From NCBI GenBank assembly GCA_018675335.1, contig JABGYH010000004.1:62001-126000 (forward strand): DNA of 64,000 nt, read 5' to 3'. The stretch comes from Candidatus Woesearchaeota archaeon. GTDB lineage: Archaea; Nanobdellota; Nanobdellia; Woesearchaeales; UBA11576. Below, piece by piece: positions 7,480-29,412 of the stretch (its first letter is position 1; every line of letters starts with the position of its first letter). Under the pieces are notes generated by a model, which had not been told where the DNA came from, made no database searches, and worked only from the letters and a program-made list of their open reading frames with translations. Position numbers and translations under genes: made by a program.

Positions 7480-8643
7480 CTAATGTTTTTTAATATAATA
7501 GTAAGAACAAACTAAAAATAAAAATAATACTATTCCTAAAAATGCATAACCTAGTTTGTAAGAATAATTCATAACAAACCCACCAATAAATGCCATAGAA
7601 AATTGAAACATCGCAGAGATTTGTTTCATAAATGAAATAATTGTTGCTTTATATTTAGGATTAGGATTGTAGTTTAATAAATAATTATTGATAACTTGAT
7701 GTCTCCCCCATTGATACCCAACAATAATTGAAAATAACAAACCAACAAAATATGGATTTGAAAAAAAAGCTATTGCAAAAAATAAAAGTGGAAAGAAAAA
7801 TATCTCAAATAAAAAATGTTGTTTCATAGTAAACTTTTCTTCAATTAAATGCGCGTAGTTTCCCACAACAAACCAAATTAAACGAGACAATCCCATAACA
7901 AAACCTAAAAAAATAATTGGATAACCTAACTGATCTAAATAAACAGATCTAAATCCAGAACTACCTAAATGAAAACCAGTGATTGCTCCTGTAAAAATTG
8001 CGATTGAAAAAAACTTAAATTTATGTGCATCTTTGAATAATTGTAAAACAGATTTTTGATCTTTCTTTTGAATAGTTTTATGATTGTTAGTATTAACAAA
8101 AGTAAATGAAATAAATAAACCAATAAAATCGACAAATAACCAAATCCATAATGGAACAAGAATATTAATACTTGTGAAAAAAGGAAGTAGTACGATTAAA
8201 ACCACACTAACAACAGAAATATTTGCTGAAAGTTTTCCCATAACTTTAGAAAATTCTTTTTCTCGCTTAAGTTTTTTAAGAGTATCATGCATAAATGCTT
8301 CTTTAGTTCCTGATGATAATGAAAGAGATGTTGCCATCAAAATAGATCCTGCAATAAACCAATAAACACTAGATGCAAAAATAAAAAATAATTGAGAACA
8401 AATCATTGCAATCTTACTGAAAATTAAAGATCTTTTATGACCAAATACATCAGAAAAATAACCACTAGGAATTTCAAATAAAAAAGAAGTCAAATAACCA
8501 ATTCCAGTATACAACCCAATTTGTTTTGCAGTAGTATTTGGAAGAGTTAAGAAAAAAATTGAAAGAATGGGAATAAAGTTTCTTCTTTGAGACAGTGCGA
8601 AAATAAAAAACTTCCAAAGATTACTTTTGTAGTTGTTATTCAT
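7480..8643 (-). CDS. MFS transporter
   Basis: A 387-residue integral membrane protein of the major facilitator superfamily with about 12 hydrophobic segments. The loop between helices 2 and 3 has the motif A-like GYFSDVFGHKRSL. Near the end of the N-terminal half is a long charged loop (KKLKREKEFSKVMGKLSA). The solute is not evident; the family includes drug and sugar efflux proteins. It is transcribed away from the AbrB/RelE pair and has no operon partner. Confidence 0.85.
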   Translation of the reverse strand: MNNNYKSNLWKFFIFALSQRRNFIPILSIFFLTLPNTTAKQIGLYTGIGYLTSFLFEIPSGYFSDVFGHKRSLIFSKIAMICSQLFFIFASSVYWFIAGSILMATSLSLSSGTKEAFMHDTLKKLKREKEFSKVMGKLSANISVVSVVLIVLLPFFTSINILVPLWIWLFVDFIGLFISFTFVNTNNHKTIQKKDQKSVLQLFKDAHKFKFFSIAIFTGAITGFHLGSSGFRSVYLDQLGYPIIFLGFVMGLSRLIWFVVGNYAHLIEEKFTMKQHFLFEIFFFPLLFFAIAFFSNPYFVGLLFSIIVGYQWGRHQVINNYLLNYNPNPKYKATIISFMKQISAMFQFSMAFIGGFVMNYSYKLGYAFLGIVLFLFLVCSYYYIKKH

Positions 8644-8756
8644 GCCATGCAGTTGAAAAGGTCGAGTTATAAATGTTTTGCATCACCCACTATAATTTCC
8701 GGTTTTTTCCACTGAAAATATATTAAGAAGTTTGACTCATATTAAATTTAAGAAAT

Positions 8757-8766
8757 ATTTATATAC
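8757..8766 (+). promoter_or_regulatory. TATA box of the AbrB/RelE module
   Basis: ATTTATATAC, 32-41 nt before the antitoxin ATG, would place transcription initiation near 8788-8793, just after the palindrome at 8770-8785. Confidence 0.55.
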
Positions 8767-8769
8767 TTG

Positions 8770-8785
8770 GTAAGATACGTCTTAC
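8770..8785. promoter_or_regulatory. Palindromic operator candidate, AbrB/RelE module
   Basis: GTAAGA-TACG-TCTTAC is a perfect 6-bp inverted repeat with a 4-nt spacer. It lies between the TATA box and the antitoxin start, flanked by CTTGG on both sides. Antitoxins of this class usually repress their own promoter, so it is a natural site for autoregulation (inference). Confidence 0.5.
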
Positions 8786-8797
8786 TTGGTGATATAA

Positions 8798-9064
8798 ATG
8801 GAGATAGGTTTAACCAAAATGAGTTCTAAAGGCCAAATTGTAATACCTGTTGAAATGCGCAAAGGATTGAAAGAAGGAGATCAAATTATGCTAATGAAAT
8901 CTAAAGATAAAATTGTTTTGAAAAAAGCTACTGCAAAAGATCTCAAACTAGCAGAAGATTTAGAGTTTGCTAGAAGAACAGAAGAAGCTTGGAAAAGATA
9001 TGACAAAGGAGAATTTATTGAAATGGAATATGATGATTTTTTAGAAGAAATAAAAAAATGGTAA
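8798..9064 (+). CDS. AbrB/SpoVT-type antitoxin
   Basis: An 88-residue protein with an N-terminal swapped-hairpin DNA-binding domain: LTKMSSKGQIVIPVEMR (residues 4-20), GDQIML, and KIVLKKA. The acidic C-terminal half (EEAWKRYDKGEF, then EMEYDDFLEEIKKW) is the toxin-wrapping tail. GGTGAT precedes the ATG. It overlaps the downstream toxin gene by 7 bp, so translation is probably coupled. Confidence 0.9.
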   Translation: MEIGLTKMSSKGQIVIPVEMRKGLKEGDQIMLMKSKDKIVLKKATAKDLKLAEDLEFARRTEEAWKRYDKGEFIEMEYDDFLEEIKKW

Positions 9065-9306
9065 AAGCAATCTTAGATCCCAAATTTAAGAAAAAACTAT
9101 TAAAAATAAAAGATAATTCTTTGAAAGATAGAATCATAAAACAATTAGAAAAACTTAAATTAAATCCCGAATTTGGAAAGCCAATGAGGTTTGCTAGAAA
9201 AGGAACTAGAGAACTTCACGTTCAACCTCATAGAATAGCTTACATATATCTCCCAGAAAAAGAAGTAATAATATTCTTAGATATATACCACAAAGACATT
9301 CAATAA
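9058..9306 (+). CDS. RelE-family toxin (mRNA interferase-like)
   Basis: An 82-residue RelE/ParE-fold protein: the helical N-terminus (LDPKFKKKLLKIKDNSLKDRI), LNPEFGKPMRFARKGTRELHV, HRIAYIYLPEKEVIIFLDIYHKD. The basic, aromatic C-terminus and size match archaeal RelE toxins, which cleave mRNA on the ribosome. It starts inside the antitoxin gene (7-bp overlap). The final residues (DIYHKDIQ) lack the typical RelE terminal Tyr-Arg, so activity is not certain. Confidence 0.85.
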   Translation: MVKAILDPKFKKKLLKIKDNSLKDRIIKQLEKLKLNPEFGKPMRFARKGTRELHVQPHRIAYIYLPEKEVIIFLDIYHKDIQ

Positions 9307-9307
9307 A

Positions 9308-10207
9308 CTAAGCACCAACTAAAAATAAACCAATAACTAAAAGAATAACTGCAATTATTTTGAAAGTTAAAGTTTTTTTATCTAAATTCTCTTCATACAA
9401 ATGTGGAAAAAACTTAGAAAGAATAATGACTAAAATTAAAATAAATAATGGCTGAAAATTAATTAATGAAATAACTAAACTAACAGAACCAATACTAATT
9501 GCATAACCTATTGAAATAAGTGCTATAATGTTTATGATTTCAGTACTGAAAACTAATTTCCAAGATTTTGATTTAAAATTAATTGCTAATTTTTTAAACT
9601 GACACCAATACTTAGGCATAAGAATAATTGTTAATGCACCCACAAAACTTCCTAAACGAATCCAAAAAAAACCATTCCAAAAAGATTCATGTTGATAAAC
9701 ATATTTTTCTAACATATAATAAACATCTAAAAGCACACCTGATAATAACATCAAAAATAATGCTTTACTAACTGTTAATTTTTTTAATGAATCACGTTTA
9801 ATTGAGATTAATAATCCCCCAATAAGAACCAATCCAAAACCAACATATTGTGAAACTACCAAACTTTCATTAAGAAAAAACTTCGCACCAAACGGAACAA
9901 TAATTTGCGCAATAAACCACAATAATATAACTGACGATGCATCTTCAAACGACAATGCTTTAAAATACGGCACCATCGCATAAATGTATAAAATTCCAGT
10001 TCCTAACGCAATTAATGCAATACTCCAACCAGGAAAAGACATGCCTTTGAATGGAACTAACACAAAAACTAAAAGTCCCACAATTCCTGCAACTGCAGTT
10101 AATAAAAAATCATCTTTAATATATTTAGTTCTTAATTTACTATCAACTAAATTACATATTGCCCAAAGGGCTGGAGGAATTAAACCAAATATAAGCCAGG
10201 AATTCAT
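9308..10207 (-). CDS. EamA/DMT-family transporter
   Basis: A 299-residue membrane protein with ten predicted hydrophobic segments in two five-helix halves, the EamA (drug/metabolite transporter) layout. The N-terminus SWLIFGLIPPALWAICNLVDSK and the loop LLISIKRD between the halves are typical. Substrate unknown. It converges on the RelE toxin gene one base after its stop. Confidence 0.85.
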   Translation of the reverse strand: MNSWLIFGLIPPALWAICNLVDSKLRTKYIKDDFLLTAVAGIVGLLVFVLVPFKGMSFPGWSIALIALGTGILYIYAMVPYFKALSFEDASSVILLWFIAQIIVPFGAKFFLNESLVVSQYVGFGLVLIGGLLISIKRDSLKKLTVSKALFLMLLSGVLLDVYYMLEKYVYQHESFWNGFFWIRLGSFVGALTIILMPKYWCQFKKLAINFKSKSWKLVFSTEIINIIALISIGYAISIGSVSLVISLINFQPLFILILVIILSKFFPHLYEENLDKKTLTFKIIAVILLVIGLFLVGA

Positions 10208-10264
10208 TATGAATCAAAAGAATAATGTTAGTTATTTAAATTTAACCCAAGCAAAAATAAAATA

Positions 10265-11020
10265 TTAAAGAGCTGACATGTTTTGTTTAGTTTTTTTTAC
10301 CATATCATCTAATGCAGTGCCTAAATATTTTGCAGCCAATGCAAATGCTTCTTTTGTTTTTTCAGATTCAGTTAATCTTGCAGCATAATTAATTAAAAAT
10401 TCTGATGTTGAATACTTTTTAGAAAACCAAGAATCTAAATTTTTGCGCCAGTTAATTACAGGCATTCCTTTTTTTTCAGAAACACTAATTGATACCAACC
10501 GATCCAAATGAGCTTTAGGTTCATAATAACACTTTTGACCATAGTTTACAACAGTTCTTTGACTTGGATAATTATTAGATATTTTAATGATAAGTTTTCC
10601 TTTATTGATTTGAACAGAATACTCAATAAACTTTTCAACTTCCATAAATTTATTATCTTTAAAAACTTTTTTTGAATCATACACATATCTTAATTGAAAA
10701 CTCATGCCCTCAACATATCTTAAATGTTCATATGTTTCAAATAATTTAGACTCAAGTTCTAAAACTCTTGATGCTAAAACATTTTCAATTCTATCATCTC
10801 TTTCTTGAAAAAATTCTTCAACTGCCCCCGTAACAATTTCAGGAGAATAAACTTGATTTAAAGAATTAACTAAATTAACTAAATTTGACCCCTCTCTTAA
10901 ATCATCTGATTTACCAGAATCTTTAGAAATAACTTTTCCAATTATTGCCAATTCATCTTCAGGGGTGAGTTTATCTTCAGAAACTAATCTTAGTGGACTT
11001 AGTTTAACTATTGCAGTCAT
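10265..11020 (-). CDS. Hypothetical membrane-linked protein, uncertain start
   Basis: The frame is open from 11221 to the stop at 10265, but its first part lies inside the SemiSWEET gene, so the ATG at 11221 is unlikely. The next ATG is at 11020 (251 aa); TTG codons at 11023 and 11038 are alternatives. Oddly, the frame between the SemiSWEET stop (11113) and 11020 encodes two hydrophobic stretches (such as IVFFVLIIFLFVLL) without a normal start codon, so a non-standard start or a sequencing slip is possible. The soluble part has a long helix and conserved-looking aromatic segments (PSQRTVVNYGQKCYYEP). I recognise no family. Confidence 0.6.
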   Translation of the reverse strand: MTAIVKLSPLRLVSEDKLTPEDELAIIGKVISKDSGKSDDLREGSNLVNLVNSLNQVYSPEIVTGAVEEFFQERDDRIENVLASRVLELESKLFETYEHLRYVEGMSFQLRYVYDSKKVFKDNKFMEVEKFIEYSVQINKGKLIIKISNNYPSQRTVVNYGQKCYYEPKAHLDRLVSISVSEKKGMPVINWRKNLDSWFSKKYSTSEFLINYAARLTESEKTKEAFALAAKYLGTALDDMVKKTKQNMSAL

Positions 11021-11373: not shown

Positions 11374-11458
11374 GATTCATAATTTATTTGAGTTTAATAT
11401 AAAGCTTATGTTATTTAGAGCAATAGATTAATATAATAAAACAGATTCAAACTAACTT

Positions 11459-11932
11459 ATGAAATTAAAAATAAATTATGTAAAATTAATATCTGCAATA
11501 ATACTCTGTCAATTAGCAGGGATTATCGGATCATTATTTACTGCAAATTCTGTTAAAACGTGGTACACCACAATAAACAAACCAATTTTTAATCCACCTA
11601 GTTGGATTTTTTCTCCAGTTTGGATTACGTTATTTATTTTAATGGGAGTATCGCTTTACATAATATGGAATCAAGGTTTCAAAAAGAATAAAACAGAAAT
11701 AACCATATTTGGAATCCAACTAATTTTGAATACTTTTTGGTCAATAATATTTTTTGGATTAAAAAATATTTCACTTGCTTTTGTTGAGATAATAATTCTT
11801 TGGATAATGATATTATTTACATTAATATTTTTTTACAAAAAATCAAAAACTGCAGCATATTTGTTAATACCTTATTTGCTATGGGTTGGTTTTGCAACAA
11901 TACTTAATTTATCAATATTAATTTTAAACTGA
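11459..11932 (+). CDS. tspO: TspO/MBR family protein
   Basis: A 157-residue five-helix membrane protein of the TspO (tryptophan-rich sensory protein) family, which binds porphyrins and sterol-like ligands. Seen: TWYTTINKPIFNPPSWIFSP (residues 34-53, the family signature), VWITLFILMGVSLYIIW, NTFWSIIFFGLKNISLAF and the C-terminal LIPYLLWVGFATILN. It is followed after 10 bp by another membrane protein, likely one operon. Confidence 0.9.
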   Translation: MKLKINYVKLISAIILCQLAGIIGSLFTANSVKTWYTTINKPIFNPPSWIFSPVWITLFILMGVSLYIIWNQGFKKNKTEITIFGIQLILNTFWSIIFFGLKNISLAFVEIIILWIMILFTLIFFYKKSKTAAYLLIPYLLWVGFATILNLSILILN

Positions 11933-11942
11933 GGAGATAACT

Positions 11943-12479
11943 ATGAAGATAGAAAAAATCATTAATGATACATTCAAAGACTCATTTAATTTATTCAAAA
12001 AAGAATATGTTACATTCATACTAGGAACATTACTTGCAATACTTCTTTCAGTTTTTGTTATTACAATGCCACCACTAATGTTTGGAGTATACTTAATGGC
12101 ATCAAAACTTTCTAAAGGCAAAAAAATAGAAATTACTGATGTGTTTAAGGGATTTAGTTATTTCTTTACAAGTTGGGGAATGTTTATTCTTGCAGCAATT
12201 GCAATCACAATAGGACTTGTTTTACTAGTAATTCCAGGAATAATACTTATGATTTTATTTCAATATGCAATAGTTATTGCAATCAAAGAAAACAAAGGTG
12301 CAATTTCTGCATTAAAGAAAAGTTATGCTGTTGGAAAAAAACATTTTGTATTTTCAGTAGCACTGTGGATTTTATTAATCATATTAAATGGAATTGCTCA
12401 AGCAACATATGTTGGAGTTTTGTTAACAATACCATTTTCAGCATTAGTATTAACAACTGCTGCAAGTAAATTAAAATGA
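11943..12479 (+). CDS. Small integral membrane protein (DUF4013/YesL-like layout)
   Basis: A 178-residue protein with about five hydrophobic segments and an amphipathic start (INDTFKDSFNLFKKEYVTF). The motif VIPGIILMILFQYAIVIA followed by KNKGAISALKKSYAVGKKHF is typical of a poorly defined family of archaeal and bacterial membrane proteins with a 'Kxxxxxg..ALkkSyelvkg' loop. Function unknown. GAGGAGAT lies before the ATG; the stop overlaps the next small gene's ATG (ATGA). Confidence 0.75.
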   Translation: MKIEKIINDTFKDSFNLFKKEYVTFILGTLLAILLSVFVITMPPLMFGVYLMASKLSKGKKIEITDVFKGFSYFFTSWGMFILAAIAITIGLVLLVIPGIILMILFQYAIVIAIKENKGAISALKKSYAVGKKHFVFSVALWILLIILNGIAQATYVGVLLTIPFSALVLTTAASKLK

Positions 12480-24677: not shown

Positions 24678-24956
24678 ATGTTACCATTCAAAGTTGGCAT
24701 TGCCTATCAATTAAGAGAAGTTGAAGAATATCAAACAACACTCGCAACTGAATTAGGTCATCCAGTAACAATCGATGCAGCAATTAAACATTGGGTCGGT
24801 GCAGGATATGCTGCAACATTCAGAAAACAACTTGAAATACGCGAAGCACAAATACTTCAAACATGCACTTATTCTTGTGGAATACCTGAAGAATGTAAAG
24901 GATTTGAATACTGCCCATTAGAACTCGCCGTTGTTCACGAAACATTAAATGATTAA
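24678..24956 (+). CDS. Small Cys-containing hypothetical protein
   Basis: 92 residues from the ATG at 24678; an in-frame TTG at 24669 is an alternative. The N-terminal half contains LGHPVTIDAAIKHWVGAGYA; the C-terminus has four Cys in CTYSCGIPEECKGFEYCPLE, arranged C-x3-C-x6-C-x5-C, suitable for a zinc or iron-sulfur site (inference). A promoter-like TTTAAATATG lies near 24640. Its stop overlaps the convergent gene by 4 bp. Confidence 0.55.
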   Translation: MLPFKVGIAYQLREVEEYQTTLATELGHPVTIDAAIKHWVGAGYAATFRKQLEIREAQILQTCTYSCGIPEECKGFEYCPLELAVVHETLND

Positions 24957-25723
24957 GGATCTTTTGTTACTTCAGTTAATTCTTGGTAATCTAAAAGCAT
25001 TTTATCCATAAATCTTGCATCATACTCTAAAACAACTTCTCCTTGAAATTTAGTAGAGCTCAAATAACCAACTAATTGAGGTGCCATAAGACTCCCTCGA
25101 CGATAAGGAAGATGAACTTGCCATTTTTCATCCGAATTATCAGGAATAATTCTATTACTCAAATGCAAAACACCAACTTTTGAAGAAACCAATTCAAACT
25201 CAGTAAGTAAGTCAATACCTTCTACAGTATGACTTATATCATAAGTAATTCCTAAATGAGGCATAACACATGCAAGCCCAAATAAACTTAATGGATCATA
25301 AACCCACCTTTGATCATTTCCATTTCTCCCTCTTGAAGGAAAATTTTCTAAACAAATTTGCACATCAGAATCTGTAAGTTGTCCCTCCAAATCAAGAAGC
25401 GCATTCATTTCAGCAGATTTTATTTGAACTAAATCAGATTTCGGACTTTTAACAGGATGAATTGTAATTGTACTAACTTCGTAAATATCTTGCATTGCCT
25501 TAATCAGGTGAAAAAACTCAGGATCAGAAAAAGCAACAGTTGGTGCATGAATTGAAGTTACAGAAATATCATTTTGTCCAAGTTGATCTAAAATTGCATC
25601 ATGATTTTTTGGAAAGCCATGATAAAAATTTAGTTGAACATTAACTCCACTAAATTTAGCTAAATCAAAATTAAGATCTAAAACATCTTTCGCTTCCAAA
25701 CAACACGAATACGTAACCGCCAT
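24953..25723 (-). CDS. Xylose-isomerase-like TIM-barrel protein (sugar isomerase/epimerase)
   Basis: A 256-residue AP_endonuc_2/xylose-isomerase-like barrel. Strand-end motifs in order: TSIHAP, TITIHP, ICLENFP, LGITYDISHT, VGVLHLSN, HLPYRRGSL and VVLEYD. The metal-binding His/Glu/Asp set of the superfamily (E in LENFP, D and H in DISHT, H in VLHLSN, E in VLEYD) is complete. Members isomerise sugars or cut abasic DNA; this short form fits a sugar isomerase or epimerase better than endonuclease IV. It lies downstream of the NTase-phosphorylase gene, same strand, 90 bp apart. Confidence 0.75.
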   Translation of the reverse strand: MAVTYSCCLEAKDVLDLNFDLAKFSGVNVQLNFYHGFPKNHDAILDQLGQNDISVTSIHAPTVAFSDPEFFHLIKAMQDIYEVSTITIHPVKSPKSDLVQIKSAEMNALLDLEGQLTDSDVQICLENFPSRGRNGNDQRWVYDPLSLFGLACVMPHLGITYDISHTVEGIDLLTEFELVSSKVGVLHLSNRIIPDNSDEKWQVHLPYRRGSLMAPQLVGYLSSTKFQGEVVLEYDARFMDKMLLDYQELTEVTKDP

Positions 25724-25813: not shown

Positions 25814-28000
25814 TTATCTTTTACAACAATCACCAGCTTTACCTGCTTGCAATTTTTTTAAATATAACTCATGAAGTGCAGTCACTGAAACATCAACTAT
25901 CTGCAAAGTATTATTATCTCGCCGAGTATAATCTCCTCTCAGATCATGATGCCCGCCACCACGCAAATAAACATCAGTAACAAAATGAAGCCCGCAAAAA
26001 TGAACTCTCCCACCATCATTAAGACTTAACTTACCACTTCTAAAACCTGCCACTGCCGCAACATTTGTATCTTCTTCATCAATAATAGTCGCATAACCTT
26101 CATCCCTTGCACGACGAATAAGTGCATCGGTTTGATAATAAATAGGAATTGTCGCACACTTACCAACATCCCATGATAAACCTCGTTCGTTTAAAGCAGA
26201 AATTAAATGATCTTGAAGAATTGGACTTGAAGTAGGCCGCGTCCTATTTAATGGCGCCACATAAAATGATGTTGGATCAGTACCCATAAAATCTCCTTTA
26301 CGATCTAACCTCGCAAATTCTCCTGTTAAAACTACACTTCCAGGAGGGAGTTCATCAACTAAACTACCACAAATTCCAGGTGCCACAATATATTCAGCAC
26401 CAAAACTAATACCTATTTCTGCCCACTTCATTGCGCTAGTTTGACCACTACAACAAATAAGATCAAACTCAAAACCATCTTCAAATGAGTAACGAACAAT
26501 ATTTTGCCCAATAGAATTTACTTCTGTTGGAACTGCACCCGGCAAAACTAAAAAATTAGCTTCACCTCTTAACCCTGCATGTTCAAGAGTTTTAGGAGTT
26601 GCAGCAGGATCACCAAATATTTGAGTTAATACCTCTTTATATCTAGGATTTGATGTTAATAAAACATATTTGGGACCTGTTTTTTTATGTCCATGACGAC
26701 GAAGTTGACCCGCAGGCCTAATTGCAAAATTGTCAGGATCAGGATAAGCCATAAATTCATTTAAGTTCGCAAACAAATGATTTCTGAAAAATTTTATTTG
26801 TTCATCAACACAAGACTCAAATGATTGATCTTCAAATCTACGTTTTGGTTTGAATGCAATTCCTAACTGATCTTTCCAAGAATAAATTTCAAAATCTTCA
26901 ATCCTATCAGGATGTGATGTCAAATATTCTTTTGCTTTTTCAAAAATAATTCTTTCAACATCCTTAATATGATCTAACCTAGTATTTACTGGAAAAACAA
27001 ACCAATCAGGATCACTCAAATAATCTAATTCTAAATCCCTATAATTAAAAAGGTTATTTTTTATGCAACCTGCATTTTCATCTTTAGTGAAATCGTGAGC
27101 TGCAAGAACAATTCTTTGCCACATTTTAGGATTTTGACTAACCCACCAATTCATAATTCCTTTACTACCCTCATCATTATTTGGAAATTTAATTTCAAAC
27201 CCAGATTCATCAATTGGCACAACATCTTTTTTTGAAGGAGTGCCAGCTAAATCTTTTGGAAGTCCTACTTCAATAATTTTTTCACAAACAAGTTCTAATG
27301 AACCATATTCTTGAATTAAACGCTCAACAGTGATTCCATTAAGACCATGATTAGAACGATGATAAACTCCTTTTGAAACAAAAAATTGTTTTGCACGACG
27401 AATCTCATATTTCATCTCATCAGTCCAGCCAGCCATAGAAAGAATATAATCTAGAGTCCTCACATCATATTTTGGGCGAATGCTTAAATCAACTCGCCCA
27501 CTAGACCTAAACGTATATGCCATTCTTGGTTGATCATCAAAATCAGACCCTTTACGACCTAACTGATCCACTGCTGGAACATGCCTAAGAATAGTATCTG
27601 CGATAACTTGTTTGAATTTAATTGACTCTTCATTCATAAGAACCATATCGATATCAGTATCTGATTTGGCAGGAAGATAAGTTCCTCTCGCAGAACTACC
27701 AACAGAATAAAAAACTATATCTCGTTTTTCAGCTTCATCTTGATCAAATAAAAAAATACCCGAATCGAGTTCTTCTCTCGTAATTGGAATTTGATCTTTA
27801 GCAATTAATTCTTCTAATTTTGCTTTTGGAAAATAATTCCCAATAAAAATACCCACCTTTGCAGGATCAAAATCATGAGCTACAAGAATATCTCTTAAAT
27901 CAGTAAGAATACAAACATCTGTTTCGATGTTATGTTGATGCTCTATTTGTGATACGTTCCACCCATTATGTTGCACGAATTTCAAAGCCCCCTGAATCAA
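25814..28000 (-). CDS. CCA-type nucleotidyltransferase fused to a nucleoside-phosphorylase-like domain
   Basis: A 728-residue two-part protein. Residues about 90-430 follow the archaeal CCA-adding enzyme: GSSARGTYLPAKSDTDIDM with the metal-binding acids D116 and D118, the third acid in RVDLSI (D171), and GLNGITVERLIQEYGSLE, matching the central domain's 'GFSGYLxELLixxYGsFe'. Residues about 440-710 resemble a purine/uridine phosphorylase (PNP/UDP superfamily): LICCSGQTSAMKWAEIGISF, VAPGICGSLVDELPPGSVVL, IIDEEDTNVAAVAG. The C-terminus ends CCKR. The fusion is not one I know. It could act on tRNA ends or make and break a nucleotide signal; both are inference. Divergent from the DRE-TIM gene. Confidence 0.8.
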   Translation of the reverse strand: MIQGALKFVQHNGWNVSQIEHQHNIETDVCILTDLRDILVAHDFDPAKVGIFIGNYFPKAKLEELIAKDQIPITREELDSGIFLFDQDEAEKRDIVFYSVGSSARGTYLPAKSDTDIDMVLMNEESIKFKQVIADTILRHVPAVDQLGRKGSDFDDQPRMAYTFRSSGRVDLSIRPKYDVRTLDYILSMAGWTDEMKYEIRRAKQFFVSKGVYHRSNHGLNGITVERLIQEYGSLELVCEKIIEVGLPKDLAGTPSKKDVVPIDESGFEIKFPNNDEGSKGIMNWWVSQNPKMWQRIVLAAHDFTKDENAGCIKNNLFNYRDLELDYLSDPDWFVFPVNTRLDHIKDVERIIFEKAKEYLTSHPDRIEDFEIYSWKDQLGIAFKPKRRFEDQSFESCVDEQIKFFRNHLFANLNEFMAYPDPDNFAIRPAGQLRRHGHKKTGPKYVLLTSNPRYKEVLTQIFGDPAATPKTLEHAGLRGEANFLVLPGAVPTEVNSIGQNIVRYSFEDGFEFDLICCSGQTSAMKWAEIGISFGAEYIVAPGICGSLVDELPPGSVVLTGEFARLDRKGDFMGTDPTSFYVAPLNRTRPTSSPILQDHLISALNERGLSWDVGKCATIPIYYQTDALIRRARDEGYATIIDEEDTNVAAVAGFRSGKLSLNDGGRVHFCGLHFVTDVYLRGGGHHDLRGDYTRRDNNTLQIVDVSVTALHELYLKKLQAGKAGDCCKR

Positions 28001-28194: not shown

Positions 28195-29412
28195 ATGGAA
28201 CACCTAGATTTACTAATATCAGAAGAAGTGCTACGCGATGGACAACAAGACTATCGAGGAGTATCATTCAATCAACCTGAAATGCTAGAACTAGCACACG
28301 CAATAGCATCAATTGGCCCTGCTATTTTTAATATTGACATAATGCCTGCGATGCACGAAATGCACGCAGATGTAGCATCACAATTAATTCGTGAAGGAAT
28401 TCCAATAACACAAGCAACAAGGATGCACGCAGATGATATTTCAGGTTGCCTAACAAGAGGAAATAGAGTTATTACAATAAGCTCAGTATCCGAAGAATTA
28501 ATGCACGCCAAAGGACTAACTGCTGAAAAAAACTTAAGTTCAACACTACGAGAAATAACTGCAGCAACCAATTATGGCGCTAGCACAAGACAAGTTGAAG
28601 TTGGACTAGCACTTGAAGATGCGTCCCGTGCAGATTTAGGATTTCTAAAAAATTATATTCAAGCAACATCACAACTAGTAGATTACTTCGTATATTGCGA
28701 CACCAATGGAATTGCAACTCCAAGTGAGACAGGATCAATAATTAGTGAACTCGTAATCGATACTGGAGCCAAAATACTTATGCACTGCCACAACGACTCA
28801 GGACTTGCAGTTGAAAATACAATTGAAGGCATCCTTTCAGGTGCTGCAGGAATCTCAACAGTACTTACTGGAATTGGAGAACGAGCTGCAGGAAATGCAC
28901 CAACTGAAGAAGTTCTTGAAGCATTAAAAGAAAGAGGATATCTAGTTAATGATGTTGATTATGATAGACTTCACGCAGTTACTGACTTAGTAAAAATGTA
29001 TACTGGCGGACTTAAACCAGCAGATAAAGGTGTTCAAATTCATTCATCAGGAATGCATGTTCACGGAGTTAGAAGTGGACTTAAAAGAGGAGTTGAAGTT
29101 TATGGTTCAGAAAAAACTTATGGCGCTGCAAGACCAATCGAAGTTACACTAACAGTTGCAAGTGCTAGAAGTACTCTTCAAGAAATAACTGCTGCAACAG
29201 GAATTGACATTGCAGAACAAGACGTACCAGCAATACTTACTGGCCTTAAAAACTTAGCACTAATGAGACGACAAGGAATAACTCCAACTCAAGCCGCAGA
29301 AATAATTCAAACAGGGCAATATTTGGCACACCAAGATTGGAGAACAATTCCTGCCCTAACTCGACCAAGATTACTAACTCCCAATCAACCAAGACCATAC
29401 AGACCAAAATAA
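28195..29412 (+). CDS. DRE-TIM metallolyase (isopropylmalate/homocitrate synthase-like)
   Basis: A 405-residue enzyme of the HMGL-like/LeuA barrel family, which condenses acyl-CoA with 2-oxoacids or cleaves such products. Seen: VLRDGQQDYRGVSF (family form LRDGEQ; Gln replaces Glu), the metal-binding ILMHCHNDSGLAVENTI, and GIGERAAGNAPTEEVL. The C-terminal half is shorter than LeuA's, with no obvious LeuA-type allosteric domain. The Gln for Glu change touches the catalytic motif, so the substrate may differ. Candidates: homocitrate, citramalate or isopropylmalate synthase, or an aldolase-type lyase. Confidence 0.8.
   Translation: MEHLDLLISEEVLRDGQQDYRGVSFNQPEMLELAHAIASIGPAIFNIDIMPAMHEMHADVASQLIREGIPITQATRMHADDISGCLTRGNRVITISSVSEELMHAKGLTAEKNLSSTLREITAATNYGASTRQVEVGLALEDASRADLGFLKNYIQATSQLVDYFVYCDTNGIATPSETGSIISELVIDTGAKILMHCHNDSGLAVENTIEGILSGAAGISTVLTGIGERAAGNAPTEEVLEALKERGYLVNDVDYDRLHAVTDLVKMYTGGLKPADKGVQIHSSGMHVHGVRSGLKRGVEVYGSEKTYGAARPIEVTLTVASARSTLQEITAATGIDIAEQDVPAILTGLKNLALMRRQGITPTQAAEIIQTGQYLAHQDWRTIPALTRPRLLTPNQPRPYRPK

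Follow-up and report, generated by a model that had tools for sequence, protein, structure and literature searches.

A CCA-like nucleotidyltransferase fused to a nucleosidase-like domain and paired with an endonuclease IV-like protein in Woesearchaeota: a putative RNA-end-modifying gene pair

What might a protein do that joins, in a single reading frame, a nucleotidyltransferase (NTase) resembling the tRNA CCA-adding enzymes to a domain of the nucleoside phosphorylase superfamily? The question is raised by a gene in the 64,000-nucleotide stretch of a Candidatus Woesearchaeota contig analysed here (the window; JABGYH010000004.1, positions 62,001 to 126,000). The gene lies on the minus strand at 25814..28000 as an uninterrupted frame of 728 codons counted from TTG 28000, and an earlier note on this DNA had read it as just such a fusion. 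Both of its domains, like the protein encoded by its neighbour at 24953..25723, belong to known superfamilies and it is their combination that appears new. Our literature search found no paper on a fusion of an NTase with a nucleoside phosphorylase-type (NP-I, or PNP/UDP superfamily) domain, and no named system in Pfam, NCBIfam or PADLOC matched the combination of fusion and partner. Together the two genes resemble a pair for the modification of RNA ends that has not been described before, and this role is putative.

The fusion is real and not an accident of assembly. Four full-length homologues including the window protein were found, all in Woesearchaeota and 44–54% identical: 54% for the copy in G001, a genome of the same genus as the window genome, 48% for G420 and 44% for G188. 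The G420 fusion is the same protein as the one in JACQSP010000071, which also belongs to Candidatus Woesearchaeota. Because the fusion recurs in three other genomes at this level of identity, an assembly chimaera or a chance frame can be ruled out. Its distribution is nevertheless sporadic: among 353 genomes of the order, only four, from two families, carry it. A scan of genome contigs used two short peptide patterns and may have missed distant relatives outside Woesearchaeota. The homologues start 4–5 residues ahead of the conserved W14 and for this reason translation probably begins at GTG 27976 (720 aa) rather than at TTG 28000; a run of G lies about 12 bases 5' of this GTG. GC content and GC3 of the gene agree with those of its neighbours and no relatives were found in the viral contigs, plasmids or phages searched, which argues against an origin from such elements. 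The partner likewise had no relative in viral contigs. PADLOC gave no match at the fusion and we therefore rejected the idea that it is a known defence gene, and none of the RNA families searched for was present in the region. The G188 copy carries an in-frame TAA 17 codons past its ATG (L027 8433-8483); this copy is otherwise an open frame, and its partner gene is open as well.

The N-terminal half is a diverged class-I CCA-like enzyme. Single-sequence matches are weak: the window protein scores 24.2 bits (1.3e-05, aa 94-243) against NCBIfam TIGR03671, the archaeal CCA family, whose equivalog cut-off is 281.3 bits, and Pfam NTP_transf_2 matches below threshold at aa 94-126. A profile search of this half against PDB sequences returned no CCA chain; a four-sequence profile is insensitive in such a search and hhalign was used instead. 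With hhalign, the profile of the four fusions matched that of 19 archaeal CCA-type proteins of the same phylum with an E-value of 3.4e-12, and the N-terminal half alone matched archaeal CCA proteins at 5.8e-13, while a control comparison with an unrelated family profile gave nothing (probability 0.7%). The aligned part, aa 80-408 (26777..27763, minus strand), corresponds to CCA positions 41-392 of 441. It extends past the NTase core through regions equivalent to the catalytic, central and C-terminal or tail-like parts of class-I archaeal CCA enzymes in the same order.

The catalytic acids that the earlier note had picked out in SDTDID and VDLSI hold up in a joint alignment of 22 proteins, 18 of them archaeal CCA enzymes. 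Both aspartates of the DxD motif (D114-T115-D116, 27653..27661, minus strand) are invariant in all 22 rows, and D171 of RVDLSI (27488..27490, minus strand), invariant in the four fusions, falls in the column of the third CCA acid. The three carboxylates D114, D116 and D171 may be compared with Glu59, Asp61 and Asp110 of the Archaeoglobus fulgidus CCA enzyme, whose tail domain holds the TpsiC loop of the tRNA (PMC3925840). The fusions further share with the CCA enzymes the central-domain motif GxxG...E..I..YG(S). They differ in their overall identity of only about 13–19%, far below the family cut-off, in the absence of the central-domain DPxxxRN motif and in the additional NP-I domain. Judged from these alignments, the fusion has a complete polymerase site and retains, at least in part, the layout by which a CCA enzyme binds RNA. 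That the similarity reaches beyond the NTase core favors an RNA substrate over a nucleotide signal.

Could the fusion simply be the CCA enzyme of its lineage? We rejected this, as all four fusion genomes encode a separate archaeal CCA gene (257, 262, 293 and 292 bits), the one in the window genome being C7 (257 bits); no bacterial-type CCA gene was found in the window genome. The search for a separate enzyme that the earlier note had proposed as a check thus identifies the fusion as a second, diverged and extra protein that coexists with a true CCA enzyme. Since separate PNPs are encoded besides the fusion as well, its role would be accessory in regard to both of its activities.

The C-terminal half, aa ~440-715 (25856..26683, minus strand), is an NP-I domain, as the earlier note had supposed for the part after residue 440. 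Pfam PNP_UDP_1 matches the window protein above its gathering threshold (29.0 bits versus 25.1; 8.5e-07, aa 532-653) and is found in all four homologues, and comparison with the standalone PNPs of the phylum by hhalign gave an E-value of 2.9e-11 over aa 440-678. The AlphaFold model of the fusion is of moderate quality overall (pLDDT 68, pTM 0.55) and better within the domains. A fold search with it retrieved NP-I enzymes at TM 0.7-0.8, among them AMP nucleosidase, which ranked first by E-value, and MTA/SAH nucleosidase, so that structure prediction, too, bears out this assignment.

In an alignment with E. coli Mtn, Amn, DeoD and Udp, the invariant E643 (26072..26074, minus strand) coincides with the ribose-binding Glu of the EME/DME motif of all four enzymes, and the invariant D676 (25973..25975, minus strand) with the catalytic Asp of the 'SD' motif of Mtn, Amn and DeoD; the GxxGSL loop is also shared. 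Arg24, Arg87 and Ser90 of DeoD bind phosphate. None of these residues is present in the fusions, which have Tyr454, Ala or Asn, and Ile, Phe or Met in the respective columns. The general acid/base Glu12 of Mtn is absent as well and its column is occupied by the same invariant Tyr454. As the phosphate-binding arginines are missing, nucleosidase-like is a better description than phosphorylase, and the domain looks catalytic but hydrolytic, nearer to the nucleosidases on the basis of these residues. The superfamily assignment of the earlier note therefore stands, while its idea of phosphorolysis or base exchange is weakened. What also sets the domain apart from Amn, MTA/SAH nucleosidase and DeoD is that it is joined to a polymerase-type enzyme. 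A different arrangement was seen in G420, where an 841-aa protein (L081 2850-5375, minus strand) has a C-terminal PNP domain behind an unrelated N-terminal part that by eye resembles a phosphoribosyltransferase.

The gene at 24953..25723 (minus strand) encodes an AP_endonuc_2 TIM barrel and has an orthologue at each of the other fusion loci, so that the pairing holds in four genomes out of four. In three of them it follows on the same strand 2–91 bp downstream (about 90 bp in the window and at locus L026, 2 bp at L027), and in G001 it is 1.4 kb away. The best NCBIfam match of this partner family is CbiR (1.3e-05), a weak and partial match made by two of the four members and not by the protein of the window itself. 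CbiR is a cobamide phosphodiesterase of the AP endonuclease 2 superfamily (PMC7733943). No cobamide genes occur among the annotated neighbours of the two genes. When aligned with E. coli Nfo, the partner keeps eight of the nine metal ligands of endonuclease IV (EndoIV), an enzyme in which the roles of these residues are established: H59, H89, E126, D162, H165, H187, H204 and E233, with H59 matched by eye because MAFFT left that short segment of Nfo unaligned. The ninth ligand, EndoIV Asp229, is lost and replaced by Q, H or K. The AlphaFold model (pLDDT 84) is a generic TIM barrel of the xylose isomerase type and Foldseek ranks sugar isomerases above EndoIV. Still, owing to the metal ligands and the CbiR match, an EndoIV/CbiR-type metal phosphodiesterase is a better, if not proven, reading than the sugar isomerase suggested in the earlier note.

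Relatives of the partner point in the same direction. Searching the order with the TIM barrel yielded five more distant relatives at loci that lack the fusion, plus one weaker match. Four of the five (L053, L054, L055 and L057) are arranged tail-to-tail with a gene whose product bears the NTase signature GS...SD[LM]DL, and the module that carries this signature is C-terminal or internal, lying at an end, or close to one, of proteins that are giant or seem to be secreted. Three of these proteins comprise 2,290-2,338 aa (L053 7608-14579, minus strand; L054 92-7108, plus strand; L057 268-7140, plus strand), one of them with GNAT and FHA domains and another with HEAT and beta-lactamase-like domains. 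The fourth has a signal-peptide-like start (L055 5572-7152, plus strand). The neighbour of the fifth relative (L056), again tail-to-tail, is also a giant protein, and there the module was not observed. An alignment of ten module members showed the G, the S and both Asp to be invariant; the module was assigned from its motif and from weak Pfam matches (E 0.02-0.3), of which those to polymerase-beta-type families occurred in two of the ten (E 0.02-0.1). A profile comparison of the module with CCA enzymes was negative, and we rejected homology with the CCA-like domain of the fusion in favor of a functional analogy. At L054, a further gene (8320-9396, plus strand) has an N-terminus that resembles the segment preceding the NTase-like module of the giant and a different C-terminus, possibly representing an orphan tip cassette; two genes beside it (9399-10355 and 11405-12439, both minus strand) appear by eye to be ADP-ribosylglycohydrolase-like.

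Standalone members of the same module family have another kind of neighbour. At the five loci with a readable flank (L069-L072 and L074; genomes G520, G130, G065, G050 and G001), each adjoins a gene for a calcineurin-like phosphoesterase. With about 12 such genes per genome of this group, chance adjacency is expected for about 1.4% per gene. A standalone NTase-like gene and its phosphoesterase could possibly form a pair of enzyme and antidote. That a single NTase-like family is paired with phosphoesterases of two unrelated kinds suggests, by analogy, that the TIM barrel also supplies phosphodiesterase chemistry, directed against nucleotidyl transfer or following it.

How could the three activities work together? 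Sequences and models show to which classes the enzymes belong, that their active-site residues are intact, that the pairing is conserved and that a separate CCA gene exists. From these we infer an accessory module of two genes directed at RNA 3' ends, with tRNA or a tRNA-like molecule as the likeliest substrate. The NTase domain would attach or re-attach a nucleotide to the 3' end of an RNA acceptor, the NP-I domain may hydrolyze the N-glycosidic bond and free the base from a nucleoside or a terminal nucleotide, and the TIM-barrel protein may cut a phosphodiester bond to release the altered residue. In the version that we hold to be the best candidate, at somewhat less than even odds, this is a matter of conflict: the fusion would disable an RNA end and the TIM-barrel phosphodiesterase would be the antidote. 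This reading draws on the pairing of the partner's relatives with NTase-like tips, which elsewhere pair with metallophosphoesterases. NTase toxins of the MenT type that attack the 3' end of tRNA are established (PMC11541572, PMC10435456). Like MenT and the toxSAS enzymes such as FaRel2, the proposed module would target the tRNA 3' end by a nucleotidyl or pyrophosphoryl transfer. Those toxins, however, belong to other NTase families, whereas in the module described here the NTase is joined to a nucleosidase domain and the putative partner is of the phosphodiesterase type. A conflict or antidote system appears more likely than a housekeeping function.

The strongest competitor, which we nevertheless regard as unlikely, is a benign form of maintenance, akin to the base-excision repair of DNA. 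Here, the NP-I domain would remove a damaged or wrong base from the 3' end of tRNA or another RNA, the EndoIV-like protein would clip the baseless residue and the CCA-like domain would refill the end. The three activities match such a cycle of excision, trimming and refilling exactly. The extent of the CCA homology past the catalytic core also agrees with it, as does the partner's retention of all but one ligand of EndoIV, itself an abasic-site enzyme. At L026, moreover, a TiaS-like tRNA modification gene, a radical SAM gene and a methyltransferase gene are located nearby. On the other hand, the known NP-I enzymes have free nucleosides or nucleotides as their substrates and not RNA ends. In addition, one would expect a repair pathway to be much less patchy than 4 of 353 genomes, and the TIM-barrel relatives pair with the NTase-like tips of giant proteins instead of repair genes. 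The patchy distribution and the association with giant tips favor the conflict reading over repair without deciding between them.

A nucleotide-signal device, in which a messenger made by the NTase would be degraded by the NP-I domain or by the phosphodiesterase, or would have one of them as its effector, seems less likely still. The folds of class-I CCA enzymes, OAS and CD-NTases are related and the catalytic residues of both fusion domains are intact, which would suit such a device. NP-I domains and calcineurin-like phosphoesterases have been recorded as nucleotide-signal components of conflict systems (PMC7159879). Yet the fusion has no conserved neighbour that encodes a sensor, a CARF or SAVED protein or a membrane effector, PADLOC gave no match, and the retained region resembling the CCA C-terminus and tail would be needless in a synthase of small molecules. 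The earlier note's alternative of a signal synthase with its own degrading domain accordingly finds no support at these loci.

The loci L026 and L027, from two genera, share flanks with genes that by eye resemble a PD-(D/E)XK nuclease and a prepilin peptidase, and the genes in between differ; in both, the pair of fusion and TIM barrel sits in a variable gene slot. Divergent from the fusion in the window is a gene (28195-29412, plus strand) for an HMGL-like protein that resembles isopropylmalate or homocitrate synthase, remains far below all equivalog cut-offs and is conserved in the genus only. It is kept beside the pair in G001 and is absent from the other two fusion loci. We dropped it as a third member of the module, because the region is broadly syntenic between the window genome and G001 and the linkage is not independent evidence. 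A small-molecule pathway, in which the NTase would activate an acid or sugar, the NP-I domain release a base, the TIM barrel isomerize the sugar and the HMGL-like enzyme build the carbon chain of a nucleoside-like metabolite, is improbable: it could appeal to this gene, which adjoins the pair in the two genomes of the genus, and to the sugar isomerases at the top of the Foldseek results, but the former lies within general synteny and, beyond the genus, the gene has only a distant match elsewhere in G188 and none in G420.

Taken further, and tentatively, the pair may represent an undescribed class of modules for RNA-end conflict or repair: a CCA-type polymerase would have a nucleosidase in the same chain, and an EndoIV-like phosphodiesterase would control or complete its action. 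Phosphodiesterases with two unrelated folds, the EndoIV-like TIM barrel and the calcineurin-like enzymes, might then be interchangeable in DPANN archaea as partners of nucleotidyltransferase-type enzymes. If true, the union of a tRNA-end polymerase, a base-stripping domain and an abasic-type phosphodiesterase would either do for RNA what base-excision repair does for DNA or be a new switch by which tRNAs are turned off and on. As the partner family recurs beside the NTase-like tips of giant proteins, the gene pair also opens a testable route to understanding those giant proteins and conflict genes of Woesearchaeota that are so far unexplained.
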